A stretch of 64,000 nt of DNA from Byssochlamys sp. IMV 00236 (lineage: Eukaryota; Ascomycota; Eurotiomycetes; Eurotiales; Thermoascaceae): positions 36,525 through 100,524 of the forward strand of contig MSJH02000680.1 of NCBI GenBank assembly GCA_001931875.2, written 5' to 3'. Shown here piece after piece: positions 3,005 to 31,083 of this stretch (positions are counted from its first letter, which is position 1; each line of letters begins with the position of its first letter). Under the pieces are notes generated by a model, which worked only from the letters and a program-made list of their open reading frames with translations, had not been told where the DNA came from and did no database searches. The translations under genes and the position numbers were made by a program.

Positions 3005-4331
3005 CCGACAAACAGAGAACGGAGCAAAATTTGGAACTTGCGCAGTGACTTCACTTTTAGGCCCTCTCGTGGGCTCAGCGCGGATGCCACGCATCGAACA
3101 AATGTCGTCTTTACAATGTCTTATACGCTCGCAAGGGGCTCCGGTAATGGCAGGAAAATAAGATATACAAGATAAATCTCAACAGACTAATAAGACTTGA
3201 AGTGTACAGCAATCGGAGGGTGATGGCGGTTGAGACACGCAACGCGGTGGCGCGACGATGGGGAACAACTCCATCGATGTCTCCAGTAGGATATGAAAAA
3301 CGATTGGATTGAATGCCAGACCGAACGATGTGTTGCATATGCAAACCAGGGACTAAGGATAATTAAAAAGTATTGGATTACATACTTGTGCCGCTCCTGG
3401 TGAGATCTTGACAGCCAGAAGTCTGCCTTGTTCATTATACCGCCGGTTTAGTCGCACCTCGGTATTGATCTGGCGACCTCTTGACCACTTTATAGTGAGA
3501 GAGCTCGGATATTTTCAGTAAATTGCAAATTACCTATGAAATCTCGTGATAAGCAGAATCCTCCGTGCTCCCTATATTTTACTTATGTGGCTCGTGCATA
3601 AAATTTGTAGCAATAACTAAATATCATTACCCGATGTAAATATCATTAGCTGTAAACATAGATCTTTATTCTTCATTACACGTCAAATCCGTGTCTATCT
3701 GAAAATGTCTTCGATAAGAACTTTTCGATTTCTCCATATCTCACCTGGACAAGTCGACCTCTATTATCACCAAAGGCTTCAATGCCACGTATCCCTCAGC
3801 CATCTTATCGAATCCTCCGCAGACTATGGACGTTACCCACAAAGTTTGTCGATGCTAGAGGACTATGTGGTAGAATCTGGAAGTTCCCGTCTGTATACGG
3901 TTCTTGGGTCTGTTTCAAATCCTGGGTTGGTGCCCTGCCTGATATTATTACTACCACGCTCTCAAGAACAGTATCTATGACATTCTATACCAGATTATGC
4001 ATACATTGGTTCATACGGCTGCATGAAGCATCAAAAATAACAAAAAAGATACAAACATACAACAGCAGGGATTCGCTGGTGGTCACCCACCCAACTACTA
4101 ACCTGCCGGCGTGTGGCTTAAGTACGGCTGAGCGGACGGGAAGCCCTGTTTTCCACACCCTATGGTCGTATGTACTAGATATTTATTTGAAGGGGGTAAT
4201 ATAGCTGAAATACAGTTATGAAAAAATTAAAGTTTTGCGCTTGATCAAGACAATCTTTGCCACTAATAAATATATCATCGGGCTGAGCCCGCCATTATGA
4301 TATGGTCGCATGTCCGGCCATTAAGCCATCA
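3005..4331. other. Gene-poor stretch with possible coding scraps
   Basis: On the minus strand, 3500-3170 reads as two exon-like pieces (frame containing YNEQGRLLAVKISPG) joined by a 34-nt GTATGT...TTAG gap, too short for a normal fungal intron. On the plus strand, 3705-4204 has overlapping open frames without family signal. I cannot assign either. The region is probably decayed coding DNA between repeats. Confidence 0.3.
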
Positions 4332-21025: not shown

Positions 21026-23364
<2,339 letters not shown>

Positions 23365-23852: not shown

Positions 23853-24695
<843 letters not shown>

Positions 24696-25026: not shown

Positions 25027-26184
25027 CTACTCCTCCATTCGTTCACCGGTTCCTTCTTCCTCCTCCTCGTCTTCGCCTTCTAGCGCCTTCTTCGCTGCCT
25101 TTTCAGCTTCCTCTAGAATGTCTTTGGGGACCTCTTCGTGTCTGCCTTTCGTCGGGCCATCAGTGGAACTGATCCAAGTCATTTCCAGCTCAAACTCTTT
25201 ATCCTTGCTGTCCTCGTGCGCAATGTAGATAATCCGAGCCGCCTCCTTGACTCCATCAAGCAGACTCAGGTTCCCCGATTGAAGATCCAGCTTCTCCAGC
25301 TCGGCCTTGGCAGCTTGTCGGCCCTTTCCGGTCGCGGCACCGTAATAGCCCTGGATGCAATGTCAGTATATCATGCACTCATCACCGATAAGACTCCTAT
25401 CATACCCAATATAGACCGCTTGGTTCAATCATGTAGAGGCCGGGGCCCCCTGCCTTTGCGCCCTCGACCTTCCCACCAGAACCGCTCTGTGGTCCAGCGC
25501 CGACTTGGCCGTCAACAGACAACTCTACCTCGGAGTCCCAACCGCCCACAATAGCAGTCACACCAAATGGGCGGACACTGGAGTACAGAGTATAAGCCTG
25601 GACGTAGCCGCCCAACCGATCGGCCAAAGCTGATGTGGGGATGGGTCCCTTGTATGTCCTCCTCCATGACGAGGCCTCATCTCTGGCCCTCGACACAAAG
25701 TGACGGCCGTCGGGGATCAGCCCAGAAGAGACCTAGAGGGTCAAAGAAAGGCATTAATATATCTTTTAAGAATAACAGCCACTACTTCTTATGCTGTAAC
25801 CCTGCGGTGGAAATGGCTTTACTCACAATACCGATATTGCGGTCCACAGTCGCTATTCTCTTGTTCGCACCGGGTTTCAGGAGCTTGCTGGTGATAATCT
25901 TCTCCACAGCCAGGACGACACCATCCTTGCACTTGATTCCAATAGATGTTCCTGCATTCTCAACGGCCTTGACGGCATACTCGACCTACAATGCGCAACA
26001 AGGACTGGTCAGTCGAGGAGTGCAGGAGGTAGTGAGAGGGGGTAGCTTTACCTGGAAGTTCCTTCCATCTGGGGAGAAGACCGAGTTCGAAAGGTCATAG
26101 CCTGTACCTATGGACGTCTGTATCAAGGAAGTGGTTAGTCGGCGAAGCTATCGGAGCTCAACGAGCAGGCGAGGAACGGACCAT
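25027..26184 (-). CDS. PRE10: 20S proteasome alpha subunit (PSMA3/Pre10 type)
   Basis: Five exons (26184-26182, 26117-26052, 25985-25827, 25732-25406, 25350-25027) close in phase to 292 aa. The first exon is the ATG alone. The N-terminus [19 protein letters not shown] with [14 protein letters not shown] is the alpha-subunit signature, and the TGYDLS opening and acidic tail fit the PSMA3/Pre10 class. Further landmarks are [28 protein letters not shown] and [19 protein letters not shown]. The 20S core degrades ubiquitinated proteins in nucleus and cytosol, and alpha subunits form the outer gating ring. A 20-residue Gly/Ser-rich insert (near [13 protein letters not shown]) and a Glu-rich C-terminus make it longer than yeast Pre10. 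Confidence 0.94.
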
Positions 26185-27117
26185 GTTGACGAATAGAAGG
26201 GACTAGCGCGATTGATCGAGAGACAGACAGAGATCGATTAGAGAGGTAAACGAGAGATAGCACGGGTAAGAAGAATCGAAGAAGGGAGAGGTAGTTATGG
26301 CGTTGAGACGCATAGACAAGACAGCGACCTACGTTACTGTCTCCGCGAGCTTCAAGCGACGGGACTTAGGACCAGCTAGCGGGCCATGACAAGGCTGAGC
26401 TTCTAAGCGCGTCACGGGTGCTGCCTGTCAGTACAGGCTCGGTCACGTGACCAGGACATTGACATGTTATCCTCGTTGGTTTCATGTGTTCCTGGCACTT
26501 TTACTGTTCTGCATAGCTGTGGAATTGAATCAGATCATCCTGCCCTTTTTTTTATGTGCCTTAAACATGTCGTTGGCAGCTTGTATGCCTCCTTCGTCTA
26601 TTTTGTTGCCACGCCATGATGTATTATCTTCCTCGTCAAATGACAATTCCCATGCTCTTTGGAGCCCCTCATCTCGCGCCCAACCCACTTGAATTTGGGC
26701 AGCGAAGCCACTTCATCTTTCTTTATCGATTTGCTTTTGATTTATATCTTTATAGTATTCTAGAAAATTATACCAGGAATGGACTTTTGAGATTCTCCCT
26801 CCTTCCAGTGCAAAAACACCATTAATCGCGTCTCAGAACTTCCTAGTTTAGTTGAAATATTGGTATCTTTCTGCGAGAGATACATTACGCCTGATTCCAC
26901 GGACGTTCTGGTGTCTATAGAGATTCGACTATATTGTTTGGATTCATACTTCCCCTGTAAGTGATCTGTGGCTTGTACTCCTTCACCTTTGAGCAGCATA
27001 CAATGCTTGCATGTCTATGCTCCATCGGATTCTACTCCACATGGGCTGCTTGTAACAAACCTATCGATATTGACACTAGATCTAGCTAGGTACTGTTATC
27101 TTCGAAATACCTGAGGG
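26185..27117. other. Intergenic, divergent promoter region
   Basis: 933 bp between the proteasome gene and the orphan at 27118, which diverge. No supported gene. Small frames at 26447-26825 have no family or splice support. Confidence 0.45.
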
Positions 27118-27732
27118 ATGGAGAGCCATCTTGCAGAACTGTTTGCTAGACAGGTTACTCTAAGCAACCCGCCTCCGTCGACCAGTCCACATCGTGGTAA
27201 TAATACTACTTTCCCGCTGCATAGCACGTTTCAGTATGCCCTCCCCGGCACATCCCTCCAGAGCTTTCATGATTCCTCCTGGAAATCATTAGCATGTCTA
27301 GGTATCGGTGATGGGAGACCGATTGCACCTTCGTTCGGGGTGTTGGGTCAGCGTGATCCCGAACGCTTGTCGGTGTCTAGCTCCCAGTCCGACATGTCCG
27401 AACAACAGCAATCAAAGCCAAGTCAGACGTCGATGATGACCCAACCTGTTACACAAGAAGGGGGCTTGGGACAGAAGCACCCATCAGCCAACAAATTGAA
27501 TCTGGGAGATCGCGAAACCTTTGCTGCTGATGTGGACATGGACATTGATGATGGCGATGACTGCGATTTCACTGAAGAGGGTGCGGAACCCTATATTATG
27601 TCGGGATATGAAGCACTAGCTCGGCGCGAATATGAACTGTCTTCGATGAAGACGTCGTTGCCGGAAGAACCCACGACTGGTGCTCCGTATAACCCGGCGT
27701 ATGACCCTGTATATCAAGGTCATGGATGGTGA
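27118..27732 (+). CDS. Acidic orphan protein, 204 aa
   Basis: An intronless frame from ATG 27118 to a stop at 27732. I do not recognise it. The first half is Ser/Pro-rich and probably disordered. The middle holds a Gln/Ser stretch (SEQQQSKPSQTS). The C-terminal third has a marked acidic run, DVDMDIDDGDDCDFTEE, followed by YIMSGYEALARREYELSSMK, which could be a short helix, and a Tyr/Pro end (NPAYDPVYQGHGW). No signal peptide, membrane segment or catalytic motif is visible. Codon use and the isolated position with an own upstream gap support a real gene. The sequence features would suit a nuclear or cytosolic adaptor, which is a guess. Confidence 0.6.
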   Translation: MESHLAELFARQVTLSNPPPSTSPHRGNNTTFPLHSTFQYALPGTSLQSFHDSSWKSLACLGIGDGRPIAPSFGVLGQRDPERLSVSSSQSDMSEQQQSKPSQTSMMTQPVTQEGGLGQKHPSANKLNLGDRETFAADVDMDIDDGDDCDFTEEGAEPYIMSGYEALARREYELSSMKTSLPEEPTTGAPYNPAYDPVYQGHGW

Positions 27733-28313: not shown

Positions 28314-28692
28314 CTATCGAGCGTGACTGGCACCTTGAGATCCTCCAAGTTCACCGTCTCTATTTCCAGCTGTCAGTCCACAATCCCCTTCAACCGATAG
28401 TCAGGTCCAATGCTTACGAAACCGCAGTCGACGTTTTCCTTGAAATATGATCCATCAATGGATCAGCAGAGCTTGGAGGTCGACTGTTGAAGAGTCCAAA
28501 CGCGAGAGACTGCTTGTCTCTGGGTTCAGATGCTCCAAGCTCCGATTTCCATATCTGGACTCCACGCTTTATCCTTGCACACGGCTGACCGGGACGACGG
28601 CACCACCGATCTAGATGAAGTAGGGGACTTGCCGTCGTCTTCAGCGATATGGCCAGCAGCAGTATGACAAGAAAGATAGGAGATAACTTCAT
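28314..28692 (-). CDS. ppgA: Alpha-type mating pheromone precursor
   Basis: Two exons (28692-28418, 28359-28314) close in phase to 106 aa. The donor is GTAAGC and the acceptor AATAG, with CTGAC upstream. Residues 1 to about 22 are a signal peptide (KLSPIFLVILLLAISLK). Shortly after comes DRWCRRPGQPCARIKR. WCRRPGQPC fits the nine-residue cyclic-looking core W-C-x-x-x-G-Q-x-C of alpha-pheromones in filamentous ascomycetes, and a Lys-Arg pair downstream is a Kex2-type cleavage site. Only one core copy is present, as in Eurotiales, in contrast to the many repeats of Sordariomycetes and yeast. The rest of the precursor has no other motif. The secreted peptide would be sensed by a Ste2-type receptor (PreB). 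The gene is short and easily missed by predictors. Confidence 0.85.
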
Positions 28693-29636
28693 GACCGAAC
28701 CAGCGGTCGAGAATGCAAATCTGAACTAGAAAGAACTGGAAGTATGAAAACGTTGTTCACGATATTGTAAGTAATTATTGCACAGAGAAGACTGGAGGGT
28801 TCAAAGTAGATATGCCCGTTTGTATTTCGTTTGTATAGAAATGCTTCGCGGAAGAAAAGACATGCATGATTTAGGATATCTCCAGGCACGAGAAGGCCTC
28901 ATAGATTATTTGGGGAAGGGAAGATGTGTATATAATTCAGACAGGAGCTAATCCATCACTTCGATTAGATGCTGATTCACGGCAATAAGCGATTCATCCT
29001 GAATATCGCCGTTATTGCCAGTGGTCAGTCACTCAATAGTGGCACTCAATAAGCCCTGATACAAAAAAGAAAGAGCAACAACATCTGGGCCCACCAAGGG
29101 TAGAGAACACTTCCCAGTTCGCATGTAACCATCTACTGAAAGGTCAATAGAAGTCGCAGTATACTAAATATCGCGGTAAACACCGAATCGGATGTTCTTG
29201 GCATTCCCGATCGGAAGATTCAATAACAATAACTGAAGTAGTAAGTAGCGATATCGGCAATAAGCACCCCCGCGGAAGATAATAATAGGAAAAAGATGAT
29301 AGGGAAACGAAGAGGATATTCGAAATAGGCCAGATCCTATAATTTATTCCCTAGACTAGAATAGAATCGACAGAGAGGAGATCAGATCCATATCGGAAAG
29401 CGGACCATCGACCGGCCAGCCCGAAGCCGAAACGTGAGAAGCAAAGAAAGAAAGTCGCCCGCTGCGGCAACTTGCCCCGATCCCGTTTTTCCGGTCTTCC
29501 TTCACTTCCGCGTATCGAAGACTACTAACTAACTAACTAACTCCTCGATCTCTCTCTCTTGTAGCTTCAAGCTGCGCTCTCGACGCTTCCTTCCTCCTCG
29601 TCTCTCCCCTCCGTCATTCTCATTCTGTCGCCCATC
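28693..29636. promoter_or_regulatory. Divergent promoter region, ppgA / idh1
   Basis: 944 bp between two divergent starts. The idh1 side ends in a long pyrimidine-rich leader. A (CTAA)n tract lies at about 29524-29543. No extra gene seen. Confidence 0.45.
29524..29543. repeat. (CTAA)n tandem tract
   Basis: Five tandem units of CTAA about 95 bp upstream of the idh1 start codon. Confidence 0.8.
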
Positions 29637-31083
29637 ATGTTCTCCCTGAGAACTGCGCAGCCGGCTCAGGTTCGTTGTCCTGCCACTTTCCCGCTGTGGA
29701 TGGTTCTTTTTCGCACGGTGCCTCATGCTTTCACCTTGGCGTCACAGCTAACATTATCTTCGTGTAGTCGCTTCTGCGCGGCGCTTCCGCCGCGTCGCAC
29801 TTTGCTCGCTCTTCCGTTCCGTCTAGAAGTACGTGGTTTGAAAGGCAATTGCCTGTCCGTGCCGTCAAAACTGACCTCGAGTTCTAGCTCTTGCTACGGT
29901 CCAGTCCGACATCTTCAAGCCCACCAAGTATGGTGGTAAATACACCGTCACTCTGATTCCAGGTACGGTCTGCGCCTCCTCTTGTCCGGGTTCGCGTCCT
30001 CTGACCGACTATTTGTTTAGGTGATGGCATTGGTGCCGAAGTCGCGGAGTCCGTCAAGACCATCTTCAAGGCCGACAACGTACCAATTGAGTGGGAGCAG
30101 GTCGACGTGAGCGGTGTTGACACCGGCAACAAGCATTCCGAGGAGCTGTTCAAGGAGTCGATCGCCTCTCTGAAGCGCAACAAGCTCGGTCTCAAGGGTA
30201 TTCTGCACACCCCTGTCGAGCGTTCCGGTCACCAGTCTTTCAACGTTGCTCTGCGCCAGGAGCTCGACATCTACGCCTCGGTCGTTTTGATCAAGAACAT
30301 CCCTGGCTACAAGACGCGACACGACAATGTCGACCTCTGCATCATCCGTGAGAACACCGAGGGAGAGTACTCCGGCCTGGAGCACCAGTCCGTCCAGGGC
30401 GTCGTCGAGTCGCTGAAGATCATCACCCGCGCCAAGTCTGAGCGCATCGCCAAGTTTGCTTTCAGCTTTGCTCTGGCAAACAACCGCAAGAAGGTCACCT
30501 GTATCCACAAGGCCAACATCATGAAGCTCGCAGACGGTCTTTTCCGCAGCACCTTCAGCAAGGTCGCCGAGAATTACCCCACTCTCGAGACCAACGACAT
30601 GATCGTCGACAACGCCTCCATGCAGGCTGTCTCCCGGCCTCAGCAGTTCGACGTGATGGTCATGCCTAACCTGTACGGTGGTATCCTGTCCAACATTGGT
30701 GCCGCCCTTGTTGGTGGCCCCGGTATTGTTCCCGGATGCAACATTGGTCGCGACATCGCCGTTTTCGAGCCCGGTTGCCGTCACGTCGGTCTCGACATCA
30801 AGGGCAAGGACCAGGCTAACCCTACCGCTCTCATTCTCTCTGGCTCTATGCTTCTCCGTCACTTGGGTCTCGATGAACACGCCAACCGCATTTCCAAGGC
30901 TGTGTACGACGTGATCGCCGAAGGGTAAGTTCAGCAGCATTCATACTAAGCTCCGATCTGATTTTGTCGTGTCACTAACACTTCTGGCTCCGCAGCAAAA
31001 CGAGAACCCGCGACATGGGTGGCCAGGCTAGCACCCACGAGTTCACCCGGGCTGTCTTGGACAAGATGGAGACTGCTCTGTAG
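29637..31083 (+). CDS. idh1: NAD-dependent isocitrate dehydrogenase subunit 1, mitochondrial
   Basis: Five exons (29637-29669, 29768-29828, 29888-29962, 30021-30924, 30996-31083) close in phase to 386 aa. The first ~40 residues are a mitochondrial presequence rich in Arg/Ser/Ala (FSLRTAQPAQ, then RSSVPSRTLATV). The mature part starts near KYGGKYTVTLIPGDGIGAEV and shows the isocitrate/isopropylmalate dehydrogenase fold: SVVLIKNIPGYKTRHDN, the IIRENTEGEYSG motif, NIMKLADGLF, and the signature NLYGGILSNIGAALVGGPG. The octameric NAD-IDH of the matrix converts isocitrate to 2-oxoglutarate. The IPGYKTRHDN sequence and overall length match the Idh1 (regulatory-type) subunit rather than Idh2. Overlapping antisense frames are shadows. 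Confidence 0.95.

Follow-up and report, generated by a model that had tools for sequence, protein, structure and literature searches.

A predicted PpgA-type alpha-pheromone precursor gene with a single WCRRPGQPC core in a MAT1-1 Eurotiomycete

The pheromone-like frame and its neighbourhood

The window, that is, the whole 64-kb stretch of DNA analyzed here, carries on its minus strand an open frame of 92 amino acids with its ATG at 28692 and its stop at 28414. The encoded protein starts with a hydrophobic segment, which is followed by the residues SPLLHLDR, the core WCRRPGQPC, the residues ARIKR, and a 49-residue tail. The features of this frame and of the surrounding region are listed below in window coordinates.

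21335..23364, plus strand: gfa1, glutamine-fructose-6-phosphate aminotransferase, in two open stretches
23907..24695, plus strand: lumazine synthase (PF00885), flanked by gfa1 and the proteasome gene, in two open stretches
25027..25985, minus strand: proteasome subunit alpha type 3 (PRE10), three exons, PF00227 in all three
27115..27732, plus strand: 205-codon open frame separating the candidate from the proteasome gene, no Pfam match
28314..28359, minus strand: candidate exon 2 of 46 bp including the stop, extending the product to 106 aa (sequence signals)
28360..28417, minus strand: candidate intron of 58 bp with donor (GTAAGC), branch (CTGAC), and acceptor (TAG) signals
28414..28692, minus strand: predicted PpgA-type alpha-pheromone precursor, unspliced frame, 92 aa; 98% match to protein P0001
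28564..28569, minus strand: Lys-Arg site of the Kex2 type, residues 42-43 (from the sequence)
28579..28605, minus strand: core peptide WCRRPGQPC, residues 30-38, the sole W-C-x3-G-Q-x-C in the six frames of the window
28630..28692, minus strand: predicted signal-peptide-like N terminus MKLSPIFLVILLLAISLKTTA, residues 1-21 (from sequence and hydropathy)
29032..29039, minus strand (that of the gene): CTATTGAG site, with no other exact match in the window; it precedes the ATG by 340 bp
29045..29052, minus strand: TTATTGAG, a near-copy of the consensus site, 13 bp further upstream
30005..30928, plus strand: main open stretch of the gene for NAD isocitrate dehydrogenase subunit 1, the divergent neighbour on the other side

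Across the window, a single Rfam match reaches the gathering score: a 5S rRNA gene at 4054-4173, minus strand.

The best ten residues of the predicted signal peptide reach a mean hydropathy of 3.75, and values of 3.3 or more occur at 0.12% of the frame positions in the window. By its hydrophobicity and placement, this segment appears to correspond to the N-terminal signal peptide of PpgA/Ppg1 precursors. The core shows the two cysteines and the central G-Q of the W-C-x3-G-Q-x-C pattern, and the Lys-Arg site stands three residues (ARI) past its last cysteine; no dibasic site lies between signal peptide and core in the precursor sequence. The frame thus contains what the preliminary description had proposed, an alpha-pheromone precursor with a signal peptide and a single core. 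Most ascomycete precursors carry at least two core repeats, whereas this one carries a single copy; this is no bar to the pheromone class, since the precursors of Paracoccidioides and Histoplasma also have one core copy each according to excerpts of one report (PMC3464258).

The unspliced frame ends at a TAA that overlaps the candidate donor. A model with two exons, 28692-28418 and 28359-28314, separated by an intron at 28417-28360, would instead yield 106 amino acids. This in-phase intron had been put forward earlier, and the model indeed closes; however, two alternative acceptors likewise close the frame, giving 94 and 95 amino acids, and the intron is best treated as a candidate. As 15% of the window's donor-like sites (45 of 308) pass the same branch and acceptor rule, the 58-bp intron is plausible rather than proven. 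Splicing would be without functional consequence, because signal peptide, core, and Lys-Arg site all lie in exon 1.

The neighbouring genes point to the locus of a known pheromone gene. For the two proteasome exons that were searched, the best PDB matches are PRE10/alpha type-3 proteins; the first exon of this gene, near 26.1 kb, was identified by eye only. In Aspergillus fumigatus, AFUA_6G06350 (proteasome subunit alpha type 3) and AFUA_6G06360 (PpgA) flank one intergenic site according to excerpts of one study (PMC8227032), and excerpts of another place the same pair around one intergenic region with tags and no names (PMC7713013). AFUA_6G06340 is given as gfa1 in excerpts of two further papers (PMC10647056, PMC9977105). 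This A. fumigatus order derives from the locus tags in the papers, AFUA_6G06340 being placed next to AFUA_6G06350 by their consecutive numbers. The succession of gfa1, proteasome alpha-3, and candidate in the window matches it, which indicates that the candidate occupies the place of PpgA; the window differs in that lumazine synthase and the unnamed frame are interspersed among the syntenic genes. On the other side, the isocitrate dehydrogenase gene presumably adjoins ppgA in Aspergillus as well. Standing beside proteasome alpha-3 and near gfa1, the candidate thus appears to lie at the orthologous locus.

The bare motif W-C-x3-G-Q-x-C is at chance level, with two matches in the 47.4-Mb assembly versus three for the reversed pattern. 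The second match (C782, L009) was dropped, as it belongs to a 28-codon frame and the motif stands three codons past a stop. Within the window, an in-frame Met 20-60 codons upstream combined with a similarly hydrophobic start is found at 0.12% of 127,630 frame positions, and a dibasic pair at most eight residues away at 8.3%; together with the three control matches (3 x 0.0012 x 0.083, independence assumed), about 3e-4 chance genes are expected per assembly. What is rare is the motif within a secreted, dibasic-bearing frame, unlike the motif by itself.

A search of the assembly with residues 1-43 detected no second copy of the gene, and two weak matches to the frame (L002 and L003; E 0.16 and 0.46) were set aside as chance; of L002, 400 bases were read. 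The frame has no match in Pfam, NCBIfam, or the PDB sequences; the yeast-type MF_alpha families (PF04648/PF05436) were not matched, with no Pfam family found at E up to 1 for the 92-aa form or up to 10 for the 106-aa form. A protein search with the frame returned, among four candidates, one 98% match (P0001, from the Logan assemblies), which differs at 2 of 92 residues and leaves the core unchanged at the amino-acid level. When an alignment carrying other cores was used as bait, P0001 was again the only match, among five candidates. Since the search requires shared five-residue words, the missing PpgA proteins say little. With no homologue beyond the 98% match, orthology rests on the core and the locus order and not on alignment.

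Mating genes and candidate MAT1-1-1 sites

The assembly that contains the window also encodes likely partners of the candidate. We found one STE2-family receptor (PreB; C837, 333.9 bits) that looks intact and comprises 370 amino acids after removal of one 51-bp intron, one STE3 gene (the a-factor receptor PreA; C638, two exon matches), and one MAT alpha-box gene (MAT1-1-1; C827:231626-232006); SLA2 (C827:233503-234108) lies about 1.5 kb from the latter. A Kex2-type P-domain match is present on C809 and a DPPIV/STE13-type match on C543. A search of the assembly for the HMG box gave 19 matches, and no MAT1-2 gene was recognized by eye among the higher-GC ones (L016, L018/L027, L021, L024, L026, L028). 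A putative cognate PreB and a MAT1-1 gene therefore seem to be combined in one genome.

The assembly itself seems mixed. While the mating-gene loci (L001, L004, L005, L006) have 46-49% GC, the examined loci on a set of contigs (C85, C702, C463, C564, C737, C59, C46, C456, C363, C461, C64; loci among L010-L040) have about 32-40% GC and bear many HMG-box genes, of a kind that we take to be associated with early-diverging fungi. Additional Kex2 and DPPIV matches are located on contigs of lower GC, apparently from another fungus, and come in pairs of equal score (C459/C710, 41% GC; C363/C461).

The receptor also helps to place the lineage, whereas a search of the assembly for 5.8S ribosomal RNA gave no match. 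PreB is 85% identical to its best match among those listed; further listed matches include Thermoascus thermophilus (54%), Blastomyces parvus (55%), six named Aspergillus proteins (47-54%), and four named Penicillium proteins (42-48%). In a quick tree of the query with 43 hand-picked sequences from the 89 matches, PreB clusters with its two close matches, P0002 and P0004 (SH-aLRT 100), and this trio stands beside Thermoascus, Talaromyces, and Onygenales (16 sequences, SH-aLRT 87; inner branching unsettled). A nine-member Aspergillus-Penicillium group (SH-aLRT 100) excludes it. The tree thus points to the Eurotiomycetidae outside Aspergillus and Penicillium, the two genera that had initially been suggested as kin; with 42-54% PreB identity, that suggestion was too close.

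In Penicillium chrysogenum, CTATTGAG has been reported as the MAT1-1-1 consensus, and ppg1, pre1, kex1, and kex2 as MAT1-1-1 targets (excerpts of PMC10512297). The window contains one exact CTATTGAG versus 2.4 expected by shuffling, so the count is uninformative and only the position of the site speaks. The string YTATTGAGTG occurs twice in the window, at the two promoter places, and two occurrences are reached in 4 of 100 shuffles. Both eight-letter forms together amount to seven sites in 64 kb, corresponding to a chance of 0.002 that two fall in one given 600-bp promoter. As the TTATTGAG form is post hoc, added after being seen, the promoter sites lend support and not proof.

Three TTATTGAG copies also lie about 405-530 bp ahead of the presumed PreA start (C638, L006, 924-1051, spanning at most 130 bp), possibly forming a MAT1-1-1 target cluster. 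Neither CTATTGAG nor TTATTGAG occurs in the 3.9-kb PreB locus. Sites before PreA and none at PreB would be expected of a MAT1-1 programme, again as support and not proof. The Kex2-like and DPPIV loci contain neither form, although kex2 is listed among the P. chrysogenum targets of MAT1-1-1. Of the 20 loci scanned, the MAT locus (L005/L041) and L026 contain CTATTGAG as well.

Predicted processing and alternative readings

The PpgA microsynteny, the receptor, protease, and MAT1-1 genes, and known cores only one or two positions apart jointly support a pheromone function, and we consider it very probable that the gene codes for an alpha-pheromone precursor of the PpgA type in a MAT1-1 Eurotiomycete. 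Read directly in the DNA are the frame with its core and Lys-Arg site, the order of the locus, the receptor and MAT1-1-1 genes, and the promoter sites; MAT control, splicing, secretion, processing, and receptor binding are inferred. MAT1-1-1 probably drives the gene via CTATTGAG-type promoter sites. The precursor of 92 amino acids (106 if the 3' intron is spliced) would enter the secretory pathway, where Kex2 would cleave behind the Lys-Arg that follows the single core and a carboxypeptidase would then trim the end. The released peptide, WCRRPGQPC, would have about nine residues, its two cysteines and P-G-Q turn presumably holding a loop, and would bind PreB on MAT1-2 cells, upon which mating would start.

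The precursor is odd in some respects. Ahead of the core stands only LDR, and Kex2 acting at the downstream Lys-Arg would leave ARI behind the core. Kex2 usually disfavours a proline after its dibasic site; if this aversion applies here, the Arg-Arg within the core would be shielded by the proline that follows. A tentative and somewhat doubtful proposal joins these points: the N terminus might result from signal peptidase together with dipeptidyl trimming, or from a cut after the single arginine, between LDR and W; the mature signal would perhaps be longer than nine residues; Arg-Arg-Pro would have been kept because the proline blocks Kex2; and the ligand and PreB would form a pair peculiar to a Eurotiomycete lineage that has not been studied.

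The frame lacks a family match and has only two cysteines and one core, as could also be true of a small secreted cysteine peptide of different function, be it antimicrobial, effector-like, or in signalling apart from mating, whose likeness to a pheromone is due to chance or descent. We regard this as very unlikely, because the gene sits at the PpgA locus, its core has seven or eight of its nine positions in common with published pheromones, and the assembly has PreB and no second candidate as judged by the frame's own sequence. The missing Kex2 site upstream of the core might alternatively mark a decayed relic, a former ppgA locus that is no longer expressed or processed. This is hard to credit, given that the frame is open with signal peptide and core intact, that the near-identical P0001 keeps the core at the amino-acid level, and that promoter sites are present. 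The precursor of a cyclised ribosomal peptide of the ustiloxin type, modified by UstYa/DUF3328 proteins, would also be built with a signal peptide and Kex2 sites (excerpts of PMC7329392), but we rejected this exceedingly improbable reading, since none of the at least 12 UstYa matches, among those listed, lies on the window's contig (C677), and the candidate has no repeat and a core without tyrosine.

As a separate observation, at least 12 exon-level UstYa/DUF3328 matches are distributed over C802, C806, C810, C812, C827, C654, and C663, and ustiloxin-type peptide clusters are likely present in the assembly.

Taken alone, the predicted pheromone gene is ordinary, small, and easily missed. Its value would lie in supplying both a ligand and its receptor, in defined form, for a fungal lineage beyond the moulds studied so far, which would permit a direct test of mating ability.

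Comparison with known pheromones

In the running text of the papers searched, the string PGQPC appears in PMC10569646 (three places, within other cores) and in a conotoxin paper. Apart from the conotoxin paper, the exact WCRRPGQPC is absent from this running text. The gene type is already known; the exact peptide was not encountered in the literature text searched. The initial impression of a novel-looking core accordingly stands for the exact nine letters but not for the one-copy design, which is familiar from Paracoccidioides and Histoplasma. A 2011 survey of pheromone variation by Martin and colleagues may list WCRRPGQPC for some species.

The precursors of Paracoccidioides and Histoplasma resemble the candidate in their single W-C-x-R-P-G-Q-x-C core and Lys-Arg site, excerpts on Paracoccidioides naming one KR (PMC3464258). 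The Paracoccidioides core, WCTRPGQGC, was synthesised and found active on PreB in yeast, and the gene has a 79 bp intron where the candidate has a possible 58-bp one (excerpts of PMC3464258). The two peptides differ at two positions, in a comparison of cores and not of precursors. An even closer core, WCGRPGQPC, is reported for 31 of 36 Sclerotiniaceae (excerpts of PMC10569646). It shares eight of nine positions with the candidate but stems from a different class of fungi, the Leotiomycetes, and is described there as pro-pheromone repeats, in contrast to the single core found here. The candidate's letters are thus intermediate between the W-C-T-R-P-G-Q-G-C of Paracoccidioides and Histoplasma and the W-C-G-R-P-G-Q-P-C of Sclerotiniaceae, and may help to map the positions that set specificity; R-R and P, as initially proposed, may be among them.

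The A. fumigatus PpgA gene (AFUA_6G06360) is like the candidate in its setting, as it adjoins proteasome alpha-3, with gfa1 one tag further on. Its core is presumably also of the W-C-x-x-P-G-Q-x-C kind. It is 77% identical to the Paracoccidioides core according to excerpts of one paper (PMC3464258), and PpgA is counted among repeat precursors in excerpts of another (PMC7329392), whereas the candidate has one core with other letters. More distant are the pheromones of Fusarium (WCTWRGQPCW) and Verticillium (GKPCPRPGQGCW), which share the two cysteines and the central G-Q with the candidate but differ from it in their C-terminal tryptophan and in the variable positions.
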